Positions 54,844 to 64,000 of a DNA stretch of 64,000 nt are shown here, in pieces; the stretch's first letter is position 1, and every line of letters starts with the position of its first letter. This DNA comes from an uncultured Eubacteriales bacterium. Its GTDB lineage: Bacteria; Bacillota; Clostridia; Oscillospirales; Oscillospiraceae. Both the position numbers and the translations under genes were made by a program. The notes beneath the pieces are model-generated. The model worked only from the letters and a program-made list of their open reading frames with translations. It had not been told where the DNA came from and made no database searches. Location of the stretch: NCBI GenBank assembly GCA_900319695.1, contig ONPN01000012.1, positions 44,783 through 108,782 on the forward strand. The letters run 5' to 3'.

Positions 54844-56001
54844 TTGAAGGTTAAACTGAGCAACGGCAGATTCCCGGAGGACGGGAGCGTCGTTGTAACG
54901 CTTCCTATTGAAACCGAAGAATACGATCAGGTGATCCGGCAACTCGACAGATTGGGTGTTGGCAGCGCCTGTCTGCGGGACTGCGGCTTTGAGGCTCTGC
55001 TGGAAGGCCCGGATGTGATGAACCGCCTTGCGGGCGGCAAGGTCAACATTGAGGAGCTGGACTATCTTGCCAAAAGGCTGGACAGCTTTACAGCGTCCGA
55101 GCTTGCCACTTACTCCGCCCTTGCGCTGAAGCATGACCTGACCGATATGACCGATCTCATCAATCTCTGCGACTGCTGCCAGGAGGCACTGATCGTCACG
55201 GATTTCTCGGACATGTCGCGTATCGGTCGGTCATATACGCTGGCGCAGAACGGCGGGTCTATGGCGGTGGACGATCTCGAAAAGATCAACCTGGTCGCTG
55301 TGGCGAGAAACCTGTTAAGTGGGAACACCGGAACAGTTACGCCATATGGTGTCCTCTACGACGAGGAATTCAGTCTGGAGCACATCTATGATGAGGGGAT
55401 GATTCCGTCGTTCTATTATCGTCAGGGGCTGATGGACGTCCAGGTCATCACAGAGAAGAATCCGGATAACTGCCCGGAGTTTACCATCCCCATGCCGAAC
55501 CAGCAGATTCTCCGGCACTTGGAGCGCATCGGCTACCAGGAGGGCGATTCTTATACGATTGATGTACTTGGTTCAGAGCTGCCAAGTGATCTGGCAGAAG
55601 CCCTGAAGGTCAAGGCTGAGGATGTGTTCAGCCTAAACGATACGGTGTCCGCAGTTGCGGCACTGGATACCTCCGAGTATGAAAAGCTGGCTGCCGTGAT
55701 GCGCTATACAAGCGCGGGAACACTTTCAAGGATTCGGCAGGTGGCGGAAAAGCTGGACATGTTCGAGTATATTCCCGGTGCTCAGGACCCTGACGATGTA
55801 GGCCGTGAAATCATCCTGAATTCGGGACATTTTGAGGTAGATCCCAATCTGGAGGAGTATATCGACTACGAATCCTATGGGCTTGATCGCCTGCGCTTCG
55901 GTGAAGGAGAATTCAGCCCGTTCGGCTATGTCGGCTATACAGGCGATGAGCGTCTGTTTTTTGAGCAGGAGCACCAGCAGCAGATGGGAGGCATGTCATG
56001 A
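54844..56001 (+). CDS. ArdA-like antirestriction protein 1
   Basis: 385 acidic residues, soluble. Two ArdA-like modules can be seen. The first (about 1-160) ends near the NGGSMAVDDL stretch; the second (about 215-380) ends DPNLEEYIDYESYGLDRLRF, like the YIDYQAYG motif of Tn916 ArdA. ArdA proteins mimic DNA and block type I restriction enzymes, helping newly transferred elements survive. TTG 54844 is the start, following GGGGTGATGAG. The stop overlaps the next gene by 4 bases. Confidence 0.75.
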   Translation: MKVKLSNGRFPEDGSVVVTLPIETEEYDQVIRQLDRLGVGSACLRDCGFEALLEGPDVMNRLAGGKVNIEELDYLAKRLDSFTASELATYSALALKHDLTDMTDLINLCDCCQEALIVTDFSDMSRIGRSYTLAQNGGSMAVDDLEKINLVAVARNLLSGNTGTVTPYGVLYDEEFSLEHIYDEGMIPSFYYRQGLMDVQVITEKNPDNCPEFTIPMPNQQILRHLERIGYQEGDSYTIDVLGSELPSDLAEALKVKAEDVFSLNDTVSAVAALDTSEYEKLAAVMRYTSAGTLSRIRQVAEKLDMFEYIPGAQDPDDVGREIILNSGHFEVDPNLEEYIDYESYGLDRLRFGEGEFSPFGYVGYTGDERLFFEQEHQQQMGGMS

Positions 56002-57032
56002 GGTACGGCCCGGACGATCCCAAGGTGCAGGAAACCCTGACCATTATCCGGCAGCTCAACGCCAATCCCTCCCTGCCGAACATGAAGAGCTATCTTCAGA
56101 ATGTGGATGTGCTGGACTCTGATGCGCATGACAGCCTGCGGCAGATATTTGAGGATGTGTCCACCATGACCGAGGAGGAAATGGACACGCTCGCGGCGGC
56201 ACTGGATGCGGAATCCATCAACGGTCTGGATGATATGCTACTGATCGAGCAAAGCCTTGACGCCTATACCTTCTGGCCTGATGTGACCACGGACAGGGAA
56301 CTTGGCGTCTACCTTGTGGAGAGCAACTATGTATGGGCTTCACCGGATATAGCGTCCTATGTGGATTATGCGATGCTGGGCGCGAGTTACTATGCAGCGC
56401 ATGGCGGCGCGTATGGACCGAAGGGTTATGCGCAGAGGACCAGCAGCATTGATCCTGTCTTCAAAGCCGTGATCCGAAGCAATGATACCGAAGAACCCGC
56501 AATCGCATTTCTTCCTCTCCATGCCAAGCAGGTGGGAAAGATCACCGGCCAGTTATCTGTCCGGGAAGTCTCGGAAACATATGTTGAAGAACTCCACTGC
56601 GCAAAGCCTGAGCGTCAGGAGCTGGAGCAGATGCCGTATATGGAAGGCCCCAGTCTTCAGGAGGCGAACAGCCTCGCGCACAAGCTCAACGCCATGCGGA
56701 AGACAGACGGCGAATACCTCAAGTTCCTTGCGGCGCTGGAGGCAGAGCAGATCAGCACCTTCGCCGGCGCGCTCGCGGTTGCCGATGATCTCGACAGTTA
56801 TACCCGTTTTACGGGTGATCTGGAGGATTACGGCAGAGATGTGCTCATTCGGATGGGCACCCCGCAGCAGGCCATTGACAGCATCGAGGGGTATATGGAT
56901 TTGGAAGACTTCGGACGGGTCATGATGGCAGAGGACGATGTGCGGAAAACGCAGTACGGCCTGATCCGCAAGGATTGGGGAGAGGATTTTCCCAGGCAGA
57001 GACAAGCCTTGGAGATTGGAGGTATAACATGA
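55998..57032 (+). CDS. ArdA-like antirestriction protein 2
   Basis: 344 acidic residues. Both halves carry the ArdA-like ending: DIASYVDYAMLGASYYAAHGGAYGPKGYAQR in the first half and DLEDYGRDVLIRMGTPQQAI...YMDLEDFGRVMM...TQYGLIR in the second. A region about 150-205 in between (DPVFKAVIRSNDTEEPAIAFLPL) is unrelated to the other copies. It starts at the ATG overlapping the previous stop; GGGAGG is just upstream. It is part of a run of three ArdA-like genes. Confidence 0.72.
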   Translation: MRYGPDDPKVQETLTIIRQLNANPSLPNMKSYLQNVDVLDSDAHDSLRQIFEDVSTMTEEEMDTLAAALDAESINGLDDMLLIEQSLDAYTFWPDVTTDRELGVYLVESNYVWASPDIASYVDYAMLGASYYAAHGGAYGPKGYAQRTSSIDPVFKAVIRSNDTEEPAIAFLPLHAKQVGKITGQLSVREVSETYVEELHCAKPERQELEQMPYMEGPSLQEANSLAHKLNAMRKTDGEYLKFLAALEAEQISTFAGALAVADDLDSYTRFTGDLEDYGRDVLIRMGTPQQAIDSIEGYMDLEDFGRVMMAEDDVRKTQYGLIRKDWGEDFPRQRQALEIGGIT

Positions 57033-57760
57033 ACACGCCAAACAGAGAATGGATCAAGTTTATGCGGGAACAGTACCCGGTCGGCTCCCGCATCCGGCTG
57101 ACAGAAATGAACGATCCGTACAGCAAGCTCACACCGGGCAGTGAAGGAACATTGATGCATATTGATGACATCGGCACCTTCCATGTGAATTGGGATTGCG
57201 GCAGTACGCTTGGCCTGGTGATCGGTGAGGATCGTTTTTCGGTTTTGCCGCCGCAGACGCGGGAGCTGAAGCTGTACATGCCCCTGACCGCGGATCTCTA
57301 TGAGCGCAATGAGTGGGGAGATATGGATGATGAACCCATAGAACTGAGAGGCGAAGACCTTCGTGGCTATGAGGATCAGATCACAGCGGCGCTGCTGCGG
57401 GAGCGGATGCCGGAGGAAAAGGAACGCGGTCTCATGCACTGGTATGACGACAAGGACAGTGTGGAACAAAAGGTGCGCTCCGCTGTCTTTACCGTGGAGG
57501 ATCGCGACCGAAAGCTCTGGGGAGTAGCGGAATGTCAGGTGGTCGGAGAACTCACGTTGGGAGAGATGATCACCCTGAAGGAGTATATCTCCGGTCAGGC
57601 GTCGGATGGTTGGGGCGAGGGCTTCGAGCAGCGGGAGATCAAGGTCGGTGACGGCGCGGAGCTGTATGTGCATCTTTGGAGCTTCGACAACTGGCAGATC
57701 CAGACCGAAGCGGAGTGCTTCGGACAAGCACATAATCAGGGAGGGATGACGCTTGGGTAA
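57029..57760 (+). CDS. DUF4314 protein with DUF6329-like C-terminus
   Basis: 243 residues. The N-terminal domain (about 4-80) is DUF4314: EWIKFMREQYPVGSRIRLTEM and HVNWDCGSTLGLVIGEDRFSVLP, an SH3-like small barrel. The C-terminal half, with LTLGEMITLKEYISGQASDGWGEGFEQREI, resembles DUF6329 as I recall it. Both are typical of conjugative elements and uncharacterised. ATG 57029 follows GGAGG and overlaps the ArdA-like stop (ATGA). Confidence 0.8.
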   Translation: MNTPNREWIKFMREQYPVGSRIRLTEMNDPYSKLTPGSEGTLMHIDDIGTFHVNWDCGSTLGLVIGEDRFSVLPPQTRELKLYMPLTADLYERNEWGDMDDEPIELRGEDLRGYEDQITAALLRERMPEEKERGLMHWYDDKDSVEQKVRSAVFTVEDRDRKLWGVAECQVVGELTLGEMITLKEYISGQASDGWGEGFEQREIKVGDGAELYVHLWSFDNWQIQTEAECFGQAHNQGGMTLG

Positions 57761-58919
57761 GGTCATGCGCGTCTATCTCTGTGGGCAGGACTGGACAAAC
57801 AGCCATGAGGAAATGTACCTCGACCTGCCTGCCGCGCCCTGGGAGTTGGTGGACGCGATGGAAAAGCTGAATCTCACCGAGGAAGCCGATCTCTATGTGC
57901 AGGCGGAGGAATACTACGATTTCGACTACATCCAGGGCTTCATTCCGGAGAGCATGTCTCTCTCCCAGTTGAACGAGCTTTGCGCCACGCTGAACAGCAT
58001 GGATGAGATGAATCGCATCGGCTTCCGTGGTCTCCTCCAGAGCAGCGCCTTCTATGACCGCTTCAGTCTCGGCATCGACAAGCTCATGGACATTGCCCAG
58101 GCGAAGGGGTACTATCATATTGCGGAGGATATCTCCAACGATACCCAACTCGGTCGTTTCCTCTGTTTCAACGGATTTGTTGATGGCGTAGGCGAGTTGC
58201 CGGAAAAGGTCTATGAGCTGCTGAACTTTGAGAAGATCGGCAAGGATTACCGCATGGCCGAGCATGGGAGCTTCGCGGACGGCTGCTATGTTGCGCCGGA
58301 CGGAGAGGTCCCACATAGGGAAACGCATTATGAAATATGTCCTCCCGAATACGTCGTCATGCTGGATGTGGTAAACAAGGCGGACATGAAAAGTCACTGG
58401 CCCCTCGCCCTGCCTGCCGTCCCGGAGGAGATGGACAGCACGCTCAGGCACATAGGCGCGGCGAGCTGGGACGAAGCCGTCTGCATCTGCACCGACTGCC
58501 AGATACCGCAGCTCATGGAAACCGTCACGCAGACCGGCAATATTGCCACCATCAACCGCTTCGCCGGCATCCTCGAAGGAGTCCCCGCTGAGGATATTAC
58601 CAAGCTCAAGGCTGTGCTGGAAGTCATGCACTGCGACGATCTTATCACAGCCTCCCTCATCGCCGGAGAGCTGGACAATTACATGCTCTCTGAAAATATC
58701 CGAAACCCGGAAGACATGGGCCGCTGGCAGCTTGACTACATGCTGGCCAAAGAGGATCAGAGTCTGGTTCTCAAACATATAAACCTTTACGCATACGGTA
58801 AGGAAGTGCTGGAGCAGGCCGAAAGCTCCGCCATGAGCGCTTACGGCTTGGTAGACAGGAGAGACAACCAGCCCATTCTCACCGCAACGCAAAGCAGTTC
58901 CCAAATGACCATGCAGTAA
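57753..58919 (+). CDS. ArdA-like antirestriction protein 3
   Basis: 388 acidic residues. The N-terminal beta start MRVYLCGQDWTNSHEEMYLDLPAAPWELVDAME matches the opening of ArdA-like modules. The first module ends DTQLGRFLCFNGFVDG, the second ELDNYMLSENIRNPEDMGRWQLDYM with INLYAYGKEVLE. It begins with TTG 57753 after GGGAGGG, or with ATG 57765. A hairpin terminator follows the gene. Confidence 0.72.
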   Translation: MGKVMRVYLCGQDWTNSHEEMYLDLPAAPWELVDAMEKLNLTEEADLYVQAEEYYDFDYIQGFIPESMSLSQLNELCATLNSMDEMNRIGFRGLLQSSAFYDRFSLGIDKLMDIAQAKGYYHIAEDISNDTQLGRFLCFNGFVDGVGELPEKVYELLNFEKIGKDYRMAEHGSFADGCYVAPDGEVPHRETHYEICPPEYVVMLDVVNKADMKSHWPLALPAVPEEMDSTLRHIGAASWDEAVCICTDCQIPQLMETVTQTGNIATINRFAGILEGVPAEDITKLKAVLEVMHCDDLITASLIAGELDNYMLSENIRNPEDMGRWQLDYMLAKEDQSLVLKHINLYAYGKEVLEQAESSAMSAYGLVDRRDNQPILTATQSSSQMTMQ

Positions 58920-59013: not shown

Positions 59014-59313
59014 ATGAACAAGCAAAATGTATATGCCTATCTGGAGGGCAACTGCCGCGGGCGAAGACGTTCCATTACTTCTCAGCGTCTGGAGCAGAAG
59101 CTGAATCTGAGCGGCAACGAAATCCGCAAGCAGGTCAATGCCCTGCGTCGGGAGGGCTTGCCCATCGCGTCCAGCGGCGACGGGTACTTCTACGCCGAGA
59201 ATGCCGCCGAGGTCTATGCCACGATCCGCAGCCTCAAAAAGATGCGCCGGGGTCTCGACGCCGCCATCGAGGGGCTGGAAATAGCGCTTGCGAGATTTGG
59301 TGAGGGATCTTGA
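59014..59313 (+). CDS. Small winged-helix DNA-binding protein
   Basis: 99 residues. The N-terminal 65 residues fit an HTH/winged-helix fold: RSITSQRLEQKLNLSGNEIRKQVNALRREGLPIASSGDGYFYAE, the last part being the wing. A C-terminal helix (about 70-95) may dimerise. It is probably the local regulator of the methylase and transfer genes that follow. AAAGGAAAAG precedes the ATG. Its stop overlaps the TTG start of the adenine methylase gene (TTGA). Confidence 0.8.
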   Translation: MNKQNVYAYLEGNCRGRRRSITSQRLEQKLNLSGNEIRKQVNALRREGLPIASSGDGYFYAENAAEVYATIRSLKKMRRGLDAAIEGLEIALARFGEGS

Positions 59314-60266
59314 AGGCGCCGTTTCCCTGGGTCGGTGGCAAGGGCAAGCTGCTGTGGATCATCGACGAGCTGGCACCCTACAACTACGATTGCTTTGTGG
59401 ACGTGTTCGGCGGCAGCGGAACCGTGTTGCTCAACCGCCCGCTGAAACCGGGCCGCCCGGAGATCTACAACGACCGGGACAGCAATCTCACCAACTTTAT
59501 GCGGACGCTCCGGCACAGGCCGCTGGCACTGCTGTCGGAGCTGGGCTTCCTGCCCATCCACTCCCGCGAAGACTTCATTCTTCTCTGCAAGTTTCTCGAT
59601 CACAAGGAAGACTATGAGACCTTTGAGGACGAGGAGCTGGCCCTGGCGGATCTTTTCTTCCCGCCGATTGCCGCTAGGATCATCAAGCGCCTGATCCTGA
59701 GACACAGCACTCAGACCAGCGTCTACCGTGCCGCCGCCTTCTATAAGCGTCAGCGCTGGAGCTTCAACGGCATAGGAGATACCGTCGCCGCCGAGCCGAT
59801 CAATCTGAAAAACTTCTTTGGCCAAATCCGCATCTGCGCCCGCAGATTTCAGGATGTATTCATCGAGAACATGGACTTTGAGCCCCTGATCCGCAGCCGG
59901 GACAGAAAGGGCGTTTTCTTCTACTGTGACCCGCCCTATTACGAGGCGGAGAAGTATTACGCCGGCAGCTTCACCGAGGACGATCACCGCCGTTTGCATG
60001 ATGTACTGTGCAAGGCAAAAGGCTTCGTCATGGTCTCCTACAACGACTGCCCCTTCATTCGGGAGCTGTACCGGGACTTTTACATCTTCTCCTTTGAGCG
60101 TCAGGATTCCCTGTCCCAAAAGAAGGGCAAGAAATACGGCGAACTCATTATGACCAACTATGATCCTCGCGTCCATGGAACCCAGATCGTGCTGGCAGAG
60201 CAGACCAATCGCTACAAAACCGAAAACATTCCAAATCTATCTATTATTACGGAGGAAAGAACATGA
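59310..60266 (+). CDS. Dam-type (D12 class) adenine-N6 DNA methyltransferase
   Basis: 318 residues. FPWVGGKGKLLWII is the AdoMet motif X of D12 methylases, FVDVFGGSGTVLLN is motif I, and YCDPPYY is the catalytic DPPY. The recognition site cannot be read from the sequence; many in this group methylate GATC or variants. No restriction enzyme gene is near, so it probably protects the element or marks its DNA. It starts with TTG 59310, overlapping the regulator's stop by 4 bases. The next gene again overlaps by 4 bases. Confidence 0.92.
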   Translation: MKAPFPWVGGKGKLLWIIDELAPYNYDCFVDVFGGSGTVLLNRPLKPGRPEIYNDRDSNLTNFMRTLRHRPLALLSELGFLPIHSREDFILLCKFLDHKEDYETFEDEELALADLFFPPIAARIIKRLILRHSTQTSVYRAAAFYKRQRWSFNGIGDTVAAEPINLKNFFGQIRICARRFQDVFIENMDFEPLIRSRDRKGVFFYCDPPYYEAEKYYAGSFTEDDHRRLHDVLCKAKGFVMVSYNDCPFIRELYRDFYIFSFERQDSLSQKKGKKYGELIMTNYDPRVHGTQIVLAEQTNRYKTENIPNLSIITEERT

Positions 60267-61608: not shown

Positions 61609-62508
61609 TTGTTTATATGGGACTTTGTTGCCAAGACCGTGCTGGATGAGATCATGGATTGGATCTACGGACAGATCATCGGCTTTCTTGGCAACTTTTT
61701 TGCTGAAATGGGCGGGATGGGCGTGGAACTGTTTGAAATGCCCTGGGTACAGAATATTGTGAGCTTCTTCTCCAATCTGGCCTGGGCGCTGTACGGGACC
61801 GGTCTGATCGTCGCCTGCTTTGAGTGCGGGATTCAGGCATCCAGCGGCAAGGCGGACGTCAAGGGTACCGCCCTCAACGCGATCAAGGGCTTCATGGCGG
61901 CGGGACTTTTCAACATTGTTCCGCTTCGGCTGTACGAGCTCGCAATCTCCCTGCAAGGTTCCTTGACCCGTGAGATCACAGGCTACGGCAAGCCCATCGG
62001 GGAGGTCGCAAACGAGATTCTGGAGAATTTCTCAAAGGTGGAGAAAGTGTCCGACCTGATTTCCACCGGCTATTCCGGCTTTGGGACGATCACCAGCGCC
62101 ATCATGGTCATCTTCTGCATTATCCTCATGGCCTATGCCGTGATCAAGGTGTTCTTCGCCAATCTCAAGCGCGGCGGCATCCTGCTGATCCAGATCGCCG
62201 TGGGGAGCCTCTACATGTTCAGCGTCCCCCGCGGCTACCTCGACGGCTTTACTCAGTGGTGCAAACAGGTCGTGGGGCTGTGCCTGACCGCGTTCCTGCA
62301 GGCAACGATCTTGGTAGCAGGACTGATGGTGTTTCGGGAAAAGGCGCTGCTGGGTCTGGGACTCATGCTCTCCGCCGGAGAGATCCCGCGCATCGCCGGT
62401 GCTTTTGGCATGGACACCAGCACGAAAGCCAATCTCATGAGCGCCGTGTACACCGCACAGGCTGCGGTCAACACCACCCGAACCGTCGTGCAGGCGGTGA
62501 CCAAGTGA
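61609..62508 (+). CDS. VirB6/TrbL-like conjugative transfer membrane protein
   Basis: 299 residues with about six membrane segments. Starting TTG TTT ATA TGG (61609) after GGGAGGTG. The C-terminal half, RGGILLIQIAVGSLYMFSVPRGYLDGFTQWCKQVV and the following amphipathic helix, is typical of the VirB6-like proteins of Gram-positive elements. It would form the inner-membrane channel of the type IV secretion system. The next gene starts with GTG overlapping its stop. Confidence 0.82.
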   Translation: MFIWDFVAKTVLDEIMDWIYGQIIGFLGNFFAEMGGMGVELFEMPWVQNIVSFFSNLAWALYGTGLIVACFECGIQASSGKADVKGTALNAIKGFMAAGLFNIVPLRLYELAISLQGSLTREITGYGKPIGEVANEILENFSKVEKVSDLISTGYSGFGTITSAIMVIFCIILMAYAVIKVFFANLKRGGILLIQIAVGSLYMFSVPRGYLDGFTQWCKQVVGLCLTAFLQATILVAGLMVFREKALLGLGLMLSAGEIPRIAGAFGMDTSTKANLMSAVYTAQAAVNTTRTVVQAVTK

Positions 62509-63245
62509 AAACGATCACCATGGGAAGCCTTTTCGACGGTATTGGCGGTTTCCCGCTGGCAGCAACCCATGCGGGCATCGAACCTGTATGGGCCAGCGAG
62601 ATCGAGCCTTTCCCCATCGAAGTGACCAAGCACCATTTTCCAAACATGCTCCATGCAGGCGACATCACGAAGCTCGACGGAGCGATGCTCCCGCCTGTGG
62701 ACATCATCTGCGGTGGCAGTCCGTGCCAGGATCTCAGTGTGGCGGGCGCAAGGGCTGGGTTTTCCGGCGAGCGTTCAGGGCTTTTCATGGAGCAAATACG
62801 GATTATAAAGGAGATGAGAAATGCGGATAAATCTCGTGGTCGGGCAGGTATCGCTGTTCGACCACGATTCTGTGTGTGGGAAAACGTCCCCGGAGCCTTC
62901 TCCTGCGCAGAGGGAAAGGACTTCCAGGCGGTGCTTCGGGAATTCGTCCAGATTGAGGAACCACAGATGGATGTTGTTAGACCTCCGGCCGGGCGCTGGG
63001 AATATGCTGGGGCCGTACTGGGAGTACGATCCTGTGTGGCTTGGGTCACCTGGGACGCTCAATACTTCGGAGTGCCCCAGCGCCGTAAAAGAATCTTCCT
63101 TGTCACGGATTTTGCAGGCTACAGCCCCATACAGATATTATTTGACCAGGATCGCCTGCTTGGGAATCCTGCGGCGTGCAGAGGAACGCGGCAAGGCACT
63201 GCCGAAGATGTTAGAAACGGCCTTGATGATTCAGGCGGGCTTTAA
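62505..63245 (+). CDS. Cytosine-C5 DNA methyltransferase, catalytic part (motifs I-VIII)
   Basis: 246 residues. Motif I SLFDGIGGFPLAA, motif IV GGSPCQDLSVAG with the catalytic Cys, motif VI WENVPGAFS and motif VIII QRRKRIFLV are all intact. The frame then stops, before the target recognition domain and motifs IX-X. Those are found downstream, in another frame up to 63558 and then in this frame again to the window end. From 62821 a second ribosome site and ATG open an overlapping frame. It starts with GTG 62505 or ATG 62520. The recognition sequence is unknown. Confidence 0.85.
   Translation: MKTITMGSLFDGIGGFPLAATHAGIEPVWASEIEPFPIEVTKHHFPNMLHAGDITKLDGAMLPPVDIICGGSPCQDLSVAGARAGFSGERSGLFMEQIRIIKEMRNADKSRGRAGIAVRPRFCVWENVPGAFSCAEGKDFQAVLREFVQIEEPQMDVVRPPAGRWEYAGAVLGVRSCVAWVTWDAQYFGVPQRRKRIFLVTDFAGYSPIQILFDQDRLLGNPAACRGTRQGTAEDVRNGLDDSGGL
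62808..62823 (+). promoter_or_regulatory. Strong internal ribosome binding site for the overlapping frame
   Basis: AAGGAG (62808-62813) sits 7 bases before the ATG at 62821, inside the methyltransferase gene but serving the +1 frame. Confidence 0.75.
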
Positions 63246-63633
63246 AAAGCTATACCATTACAATAAAAGGTTTGCTCAGCAAGCGGCAGGCTTTCTGGCG
63301 GAATCGTCCGCCACCGCGCATACCGTGGGTTTTGAGGAAGGGCTTGCGCCGACGATGAAAGCTGGAGGCAAAAGCGGCGCGGTCATGCTGCCGACGTATT
63401 GCCTGACCGACCAGGGTGGGCAGCGCATGGGCTTTGCGGAAGCTCAAAGCGGCACGCTCCGTGCGCAAAGTCACGGACATGAACCGCTGGTGTTTGAAAA
63501 CCACGGGATCGACGCCCGTTATACCGGGCCGCATGAAGTCTCGCCCACCATGTCCGCCGTTACGGCACAGGCGGCAACAATACGCCGCTTGTGGCGAGGG
63601 AAACAGCATGGTGCATCACCGGTAACGCTATAG
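62821..63633 (+). CDS. Overlapping second-frame protein carrying the methyltransferase recognition region
   Basis: 270 residues in the frame after that of the methyltransferase. The first half overlaps it for 425 bases yet reads like a family I recall from clostridial phages and elements: SVCGKTSPEPSPAQRERTS, LDLRPGAGNMLGPYW, NTSECPSAVKESSLSRIL and YYLTRIACLGILRRAEERGKALP. The second half (HTVGFEEGLAPTMKAGGKSG, FENHGIDARYTGPHEVSPTMSA) is target-recognition-like sequence of C5 methylases. A one-base loss near 63558 then ends the frame at 63633, while the rest continues in the other frame. Confidence 0.65.
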   Translation: MRINLVVGQVSLFDHDSVCGKTSPEPSPAQRERTSRRCFGNSSRLRNHRWMLLDLRPGAGNMLGPYWEYDPVWLGSPGTLNTSECPSAVKESSLSRILQATAPYRYYLTRIACLGILRRAEERGKALPKMLETALMIQAGFKKLYHYNKRFAQQAAGFLAESSATAHTVGFEEGLAPTMKAGGKSGAVMLPTYCLTDQGGQRMGFAEAQSGTLRAQSHGHEPLVFENHGIDARYTGPHEVSPTMSAVTAQAATIRRLWRGKQHGASPVTL

Positions 63634-64000
63634 ACAGGGAGCCGCAGAACGGCGGAAACGGCCTCGGGATCGACGAGAATATCGCGTTTACTCTGACCGC
63701 AACCGATCACCACGCCGTGTTCAGCCGTCAGCGGACAGATCTGTTCAAGCCTGATGAGATAGCAAGTACAGAAAGCGCTCGCCAATATAAGGACGCGACA
63801 GATCTGGTACTGGAGGCAGGAGAATCACTGGAGGCTCTGTTGATCCGCCGACTGATGCCGGTCGAGTGCGAACGGCTTCAGGGCTACCCGGACGGATGGA
63901 CGGACCTGTCCGGCGCGTCGGATTCCGCCCGCTACAAAGCGCTCGGCAACAGCGTGGCTATTCCCTGCGTGGATCGTCTTATGTTGGGAATTGCTGCGGC
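63558..64000 (+). pseudogene. C-terminal C5 methyltransferase part, shifted out of frame, runs off the window
   Basis: RYGTGGNNTPLVARETAWC directly continues SPTMSA of the frame before it, one base off, so a C has probably been lost from a CCC run. It contains the expected end of the enzyme: LMPVECERLQGYPDGWTD and motif X SARYKALGNSVAIPCVDRL. No start codon or ribosome site serves it. It is open to base 64000. It is either a real frameshift mutation or a sequencing or assembly error. Confidence 0.7.

Follow-up and report, generated by a model that had tools for sequence, protein, structure and literature searches.

A locus at the end of the 64,000-nucleotide stretch analysed here (the window, from contig ONPN01000012.1 of an uncultured Eubacteriales bacterium) probably encodes, in overlapping genes, two polypeptides that together make up a C5-cytosine DNA methyltransferase of a conjugative element of Clostridia. 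In this model, alpha, read in frame 0, would supply conserved motifs I–VIII, and beta would start at its own ATG within alpha, in the +1 frame, and comprise a domain of ~100 residues encoded over alpha motifs VI–VIII, followed by the recognition domain and motifs IX–X; the two chains would then assemble into an active enzyme. The +1 domain would be an ancient gene nested within those of phage methyltransferases. It ends ahead of the recognition domain in phages, where its product would act as a small partner, and is fused to the C-terminal half of the enzyme in elements like that of the window. Dual coding, recurrent splitting and natural separation of the two readings are well supported by sequence comparison across the family.

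A first-pass annotation of the window had described two plus-strand frames overlapping by 425 nt, one with C5-methyltransferase motifs and the other with its own AAGGAG site and ATG and continuing into a recognition-domain part. The coordinates of the open reading frames (ORFs) and the PF00145 match of frame 0, which carries motifs I–VIII, confirm this layout (Table 1). Its further suggestion of a nested two-subunit enzyme like M.AquI is upheld by comparison with relatives as regards the coding and the split; in the window copy beta is frameshifted.

A family of nested and split methyltransferases

In tblastn searches, the +1 reading of the window (62821–63242) matched 105 phage records and the version of the +1 protein from a Sinorhizobium phage matched 136, some weak matches among them possibly reflecting frame-0 similarity alone. 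A scan of viral contigs with the window frame 0 alone found no relative. In L001–L006 a full-length methyltransferase carries the match in its +1 frame, and the ORF closes soon after a GIL[RK]R motif. Of nine further loci inspected, eight likewise match in the +1 frame, here of an open reading frame that bears methyltransferase motifs: P1 dmt and five others with the GIL[RK]R motif, Caulobacter phage CcrSC without it, and Mycobacterium phage Thibault. The ninth, from Faecalibacterium phage Lelie, is broken in both readings. Among the records inspected, the +1 ORF recurs in P1, P7 and phages of Ruminococcus, Streptococcus, Terrisporobacter, Cronobacter, Enterobacter, Vibrio, Sinorhizobium, Akkermansia and Pseudanabaena.

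Profile scans supplied further viral loci (best 80 of 598) and genome loci (best 80 of 570), and a less biased set of 80 viral loci was picked solely by the region upstream of the overlap. Motif VIII is in frame in 73 of the latter (the other seven, in which frame 0 falls short of motif VIII, were dropped), and 64 of these 73 carry a +1 ORF with a G[IVL][LIVM].[RK]A motif. Inspected by eye, the remaining nine are variants (L188, L189, L198, L210, L220 and L255), a locus with separated genes (L187), one cut by its contig (L250) and a frameshifted one (L251). In the viral loci L198 and L220 the first part of the +1 ORF is lost and its C-terminal segment is kept.

The first-pass annotation had described the +1 sequence as a free-standing family. 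The family is real, but it is mostly not free-standing: in 134 of the 143 classified entries, repeats included, the +1 frame lies over the methyltransferase core, and in nine (seven distinct loci) beside it. In the nested form, found in phages, P1 dmt among them, the +1 ORF lies inside a full-length methyltransferase; in the split form, alpha holds motifs I–VIII and beta the +1 domain, the recognition part and motifs IX–X. The best 80 of 570 genome loci comprise 40 split, 39 nested and one other. Mapping nested and split forms onto a tree that retained 140 rows after removal of nine unclear ones takes seven changes, at least four of them forced by starred branches; several splits, or splits together with reversals, are implied by this tree in the history of the family. 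The first-pass annotation had held that homologues in which the first frame alone contains the whole enzyme would speak against it. In the nested phage homologues, motifs I, IV, VI, VIII and X all lie in the frame-0 chain, which goes halfway towards that situation; it does not refute the claim, because the +1 frame is strongly conserved in these homologues too.

Four close relatives of the window locus (L008, L009, L010 and L011, with 93, 92, 78 and 77% DNA identity, respectively) have a frame 0 that stops soon after the overlap and an uninterrupted +1-frame ORF of 400–453 amino acids, a single ORF that comprises the +1 domain, the recognition part and motifs IX–X; beta is open for 400, 407 and 414 amino acids in L008, L009 and L010.

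Signatures of selection in both frames

Judged from substitution patterns, the +1 reading is a genuine, selected protein and both frames are under selection. The first +1 stop lies at least as far along as codon 104 in 62 of the 64 loci tested; synonymous shuffles gave 124 stops in all before codon 104, about two per locus. Across the 149 distinct loci (of 183) used for wobble and codon-position comparison, identity at fourfold wobble positions of frame 0 rises along the overlap, from 0.30 upstream to 0.45 early and 0.79 late in nested pairs (50–65% upstream identity) and from 0.35 to 0.55 and 0.77 in split pairs (65–80% upstream identity). The same profile was obtained for 54 distinct loci from the upstream-picked set (1411 pairs), with 0.29–0.37 upstream and 0.92 at the peak. 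Late in the overlap, the first codon positions of frame 0 are the most variable, so that the usual codon-position pattern is reversed. Protein identities of nested pairs upstream are 0.65 for frame 0, 0.28 for +1 and 0.26 for +2, and late in the overlap 0.44, 0.66 and 0.43, respectively. The wobble and protein identities therefore point to constraint on both frames in the early overlap and to dominance of the +1 frame over the last ~45 codons. Comparison of codon positions across homologues had been proposed at the outset as a check on the second frame, and the reversed pattern and better conservation of the +1 frame late in the overlap speak for it.

Separated and permuted loci

In seven distinct loci (L187, L383 and L415–L419, with L408 and L420 as repeats), the catalytic ORF closes and a beta with the +1 domain adjoins it. 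The catalytic part scores 121–128 bits against the frame-0 profile and the +1 reading of the same DNA at most 34 bits, and the +1 domain scores 90–97 bits in DNA without a frame-0 match; in the 54 overlapped loci within L383–L444 the +1 score is 68–192 bits. The separated +1 domain has the pattern of an ordinary gene, with differences of 0.25, 0.19 and 0.53 at the three codon positions and 70% amino acid identity. Over the catalytic region of the separated loci the wobble excess is gone (0.47 vs 0.56 upstream), whereas 50 overlapped split loci show 0.67 in the overlap vs 0.40 upstream. These loci are strong natural evidence, at the level of sequence, that the two readings are independently selected. 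In two separated loci examined, the profile match starts at column 29 or 37, and the first ~30 +1 residues are therefore not retained there. The candidate GTG start of beta in L187 overlaps the alpha stop as GTGA. A blastn comparison of the catalytic region with the adjoining +1 domain in L187 gave no significant trace of duplication, and duplication is an origin of the separated form that we can only infer.

Locus L290 is a circularly permuted split. Its alpha holds motifs IV to VIII but lacks motif I, which instead closes beta, behind motif X. In Faecalibacterium phage Lelie (L272, 1127–2555) the C-terminal ORF also ends in motif I after motif X, and a frameshift in mid-overlap breaks both readings at once. 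The circularly permuted loci L030, L036, L096, L284 and L442 have motif IV near the N-terminus and their sole motif I C-terminal, after motif X.

The predicted internal start of beta

The AAGGAG of the window stands inside K-E codons of alpha, 7 nt ahead of the ATG of the +1 ORF, and many split relatives share both motif and spacing. When the best start candidate per locus is taken, a procedure that favours good sites, 142 of 149 loci turn out to begin with ATG, and the Shine–Dalgarno match reaches at least 4 in 129. A less dependent indication comes from the 83 phage-type loci, which were defined by an upstream +1 stop, the start not being considered. The frame-0 codon under the start ends in T in 82 of them (AAT 58, GAT 12, CAT 8, GGT 4), and the one exception, L204, starts elsewhere. 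A C in place of this T would be silent in frame 0, but the start requires T; for comparison, T is the last base of 334 of the 576 codons for N, D or H upstream. Translation from the internal ATG, like joint activity of the two chains, is inferred from sequence.

Nature of the +1 domain

Profile searches of each frame, also suggested earlier as a check, succeeded for frame 0 (PF00145), but the window +1 ORF had no family match in either Pfam or NCBIfam, even at E values as high as 10. No known domain, HNH or otherwise, emerged for the +1 frame from Pfam (window ORF) or NCBIfam (window ORF and nine family members). The tail of the window +1 ORF (residues 201–246) matches phrog_38038 (function unknown; 5.9e-11), and in PHROGs five of nine +1 family members weakly match phrog_16143, “DNA methyltransferase” (best 8.9e-5).

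A profile of the C-terminal 59 columns of the +1 domain matches ordinary C5-methyltransferases in frame directly past motif VIII (L299, 29.2 bits, E ~1e-8; L333, 12.5 bits, E 0.0024); at E < 0.01 it detects two of the 26 ordinary frame-0 proteins and none of the 103 nested or the 37 split ones. Profile–profile comparison identified the same place in references L299, L301 and L333 (first gene), with P of 0.0003–0.0013 and HHalign probabilities of only 18–40%, and for a fourth reference, the second gene of L333, the best match lay elsewhere (P 0.009; reversed control 0.5). The segment that L301 carries in frame can be found in two solved structures, 3LX6 and 3ME5 (E ~8e-19). Sequence searches of PDB with the +1 profiles found no methyltransferase, and a search of PDB by fold gave 29 matches, none at E 0.001 or better; a sequence match at 4.8e-6 was rejected, as it is dTor_6x35L, a helical repeat and not a methyltransferase. 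Homology of the +1 domain to the segment after motif VIII of ordinary C5-methyltransferases is likely from these profiles but unproven; if it is true, the nested enzymes get this segment in trans.

Alternative explanations

Because of the split loci, the separated copies and the motif I in beta of L290, beta is most likely a true subunit, as in M.AquI but with a far longer overlap. Several observations weigh against this reading. In L198 and L220 the tested stretch is interrupted by a +1 stop as early as codon 18, and the shuffle p values per locus are modest (median 0.05; below 0.05 in 32 of 64). The loci are related, so the pair counts are not independent, and both profile-scan sets were picked by the +1-frame pattern, for which reason the wobble test was repeated on loci chosen otherwise. 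The separated set is small (seven loci), and motif I in beta comes from a single intact locus, L290. AlphaFold, run on single chains, is confident only for a C-terminal helical hairpin of the +1 protein (~residues 100–131) and models beta alone poorly (mean pLDDT 38.5; confident hairpin at residues 110–138). Lastly, the +1 frame of the window ends at 63633 owing to a frameshift near 63557, seen against L008, L009 and L108 (98.8–99.4% identical across 160 nt; the anchor for this comparison was not found in a fourth copy, L107), and in the window copy motifs IX–X do not share a frame with what comes before them in beta. Compared with its relatives, the enzyme is evidently split in the window lineage, and the window beta is additionally broken, by mutation or assembly error; the window copy is probably inactive unless the frameshift is an assembly error.

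The +1 product could instead be an independent small protein, for example anti-restriction or regulatory, that is merely nested in the methyltransferase gene, the split form borrowing its start for the C-terminal half. The single frame-0 chain with motifs I, IV, VI, VIII and X in the nested form, the three ArdA-domain proteins on the same element and the lack of a Pfam or NCBIfam family for the +1 proteins tested would all suit such a protein. We nevertheless consider it unlikely, given that the +1 domain accompanies this methyltransferase in every classified locus (the loci having been found by searching with it), that it stays under constraint both as a fusion with the recognition part and within the beta chains of separated loci, and that it weakly resembles a methyltransferase segment.

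Programmed +1 ribosomal frameshifting just past motif VIII would yield one full-length enzyme and make the upstream +1 frame incidental, and in split loci one such shift would indeed produce a single chain running from motif VIII through the +1 segment and recognition part to motifs IX–X. This appears less likely still, as openness and conservation of the +1 frame extend upstream of any shift site, with ATG and Shine–Dalgarno at recurring places; the nested form would require two shifts, and in separated loci the catalytic ORF ends beside a distinct beta, in L187 with the candidate GTGA overlap. A passive open frame, sequencing errors or pseudogene debris, to which the frameshift of the window copy and the ability of +1 similarity to ride on frame-0 similarity (ghosts of 20–34 bits in separated loci; the CcrSC match without the motif) lend some colour, is highly improbable in view of the scores in the 54 overlapped loci, the reversed codon-position pattern and the retention of the +1 domain where frame 0 is gone. 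For the family, the wobble, codon-position and separated-copy tests rule out a passive frame, and the 40 split loci among the best 80 of 570 genome loci rule out sequencing error as the origin of the split; such an error is a possible cause of the single frameshift in the window copy.

With two subunits as the preferred reading, a broader proposal can be made, which we put forward tentatively, at somewhat less than even confidence. In a whole subfamily of C5-methyltransferases from phages and mobile elements, to which P1 Dmt belongs, the segment from motif VIII to the recognition domain may have been lost from the main chain and be supplied in trans by the fully nested +1 gene. These would then be obligate two-polypeptide enzymes annotated as single genes, and the nested gene would repeatedly have let the main gene split without loss of function. 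Long, conserved same-strand dual coding across the catalytic core of an enzyme is unusual, and here it recurs in phages of several bacterial phyla. The family includes the model phage P1, which makes it testable at once, and its nested, split and separated stages form a natural experiment on the constraint and separation of overlapping genes. Split enzymes of this kind could also serve targeted-methylation tools.

Comparison with known split methyltransferases

The genes of M.AquI are adjacent and overlap little. Its layout, with motifs I–VIII on chain 1 and the recognition part and motifs IX–X on chain 2, is found in L008–L011, and the chains of the separated relatives are likewise adjacent. 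Unlike M.AquI, the split loci have a two-frame overlap of ~400 nt and an extra N-terminal beta domain encoded over motifs VI–VIII; the 425 nt of the window are far from little overlap, a state nearly reached in the separated L187 and L383. M.EcoHK31I and M.EaeI are each encoded by genes that overlap out of frame. The former, a C5-methyltransferase made naturally of two polypeptides (PMC3404938; PMC3439449), receives motif IX from its small subunit and motifs I–VIII, X and the recognition domain from the large one (PMC3404938). By contrast, beta as proposed here has the recognition part, motif IX and motif X, and the window +1 ORF has no PF00145 match.

ShiLan-type elements are mobile, out-of-frame insertions of HNH endonucleases in phage methylases, with a disjunct distribution (PMC11855218). 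The likeness lies in a second protein out of frame within a phage DNA methylase gene; unlike in that account, the second frame here runs over the conserved core of the enzyme itself and has no Pfam or NCBIfam match and no HNH. In engineered splits of M.SssI, the best C-terminal fragments start between motif VIII and the recognition domain (PMC3404938), and this split point corresponds to the junction of the +1 domain and the recognition part here. The splits of M.SssI, M.HhaI, M.BspRI and M.BsuRI are artificial and in one reading frame, unlike the natural two-frame split described here. We found no prior description of the +1 nested ORF in phage methyltransferases in the openly licensed literature.

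The locus and its surroundings

Upstream of alpha lie genes for TrbL, a DUF3852 protein, DUF3849, a D12 adenine methyltransferase and three ArdA-domain proteins (Table 1), and this gene set places the locus in a conjugative element. Alpha can start at GTG 62505, overlapping the TrbL stop, or at an in-frame ATG at 62520. Motifs IX–X in frame 0 (63591–63998) and the frameshift had been missing from the first-pass annotation. The window sequence appears to stop at the contig end, where the locus (L007) stops, and the final codons of beta are for this reason absent from the assembly.

Table 1 Features of the methyltransferase locus and its neighbourhood in the window
Feature	Coordinates	Strand	Match or remark
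Alpha, frame 0, C5-methyltransferase motifs I–VIII	62505..63245	+	PF00145 (62505–63242, E 1.9e-35); TIGR00675 (E 8e-32)
AAGGAG, candidate ribosome-binding site of the +1 ORF	62808..62813	+	Inside alpha K-E codons
Beta as present in the window copy, +1-frame domain and recognition-domain part	62821..63633	+	ATG start
Dual-coding stretch, 425 nt	62821..63245	+	Alpha/beta overlap
Conserved +1-frame domain	62863..63243	+	155 bits against profile of nested ORFs
Remainder of beta, motifs IX–X, now in frame 0	63591..63998	+	PF00145 (E 2.8e-8)
TrbL conjugal transfer protein	61609..62508	+	PF19511 (E 1.1e-144)
D12-class adenine-N6 DNA methyltransferase, same gene run	59310..60266	+	PF02086 (E 4.5e-23)
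Three ArdA-domain (antirestriction) proteins, same element	54844–58919

In Mycobacterium phage Thibault (L265, 381–1892) an interruption divides the methylase gene, which has been annotated piecemeal: gp103 (872–1489), annotated as an HNH gene, separates motif VIII of the methylase from its +1 segment, and the C-terminal part of the +1 ORF is annotated as a small gene of its own, gp104 (1459–1704). In the more distant C5-methyltransferases L293, L294, L296–L298 and L300, there is an overlapping ORF of 155–170 amino acids with a segment like ILE..V.EKYFLS, and judging by these loci the nested gene may predate the subfamily analysed here.
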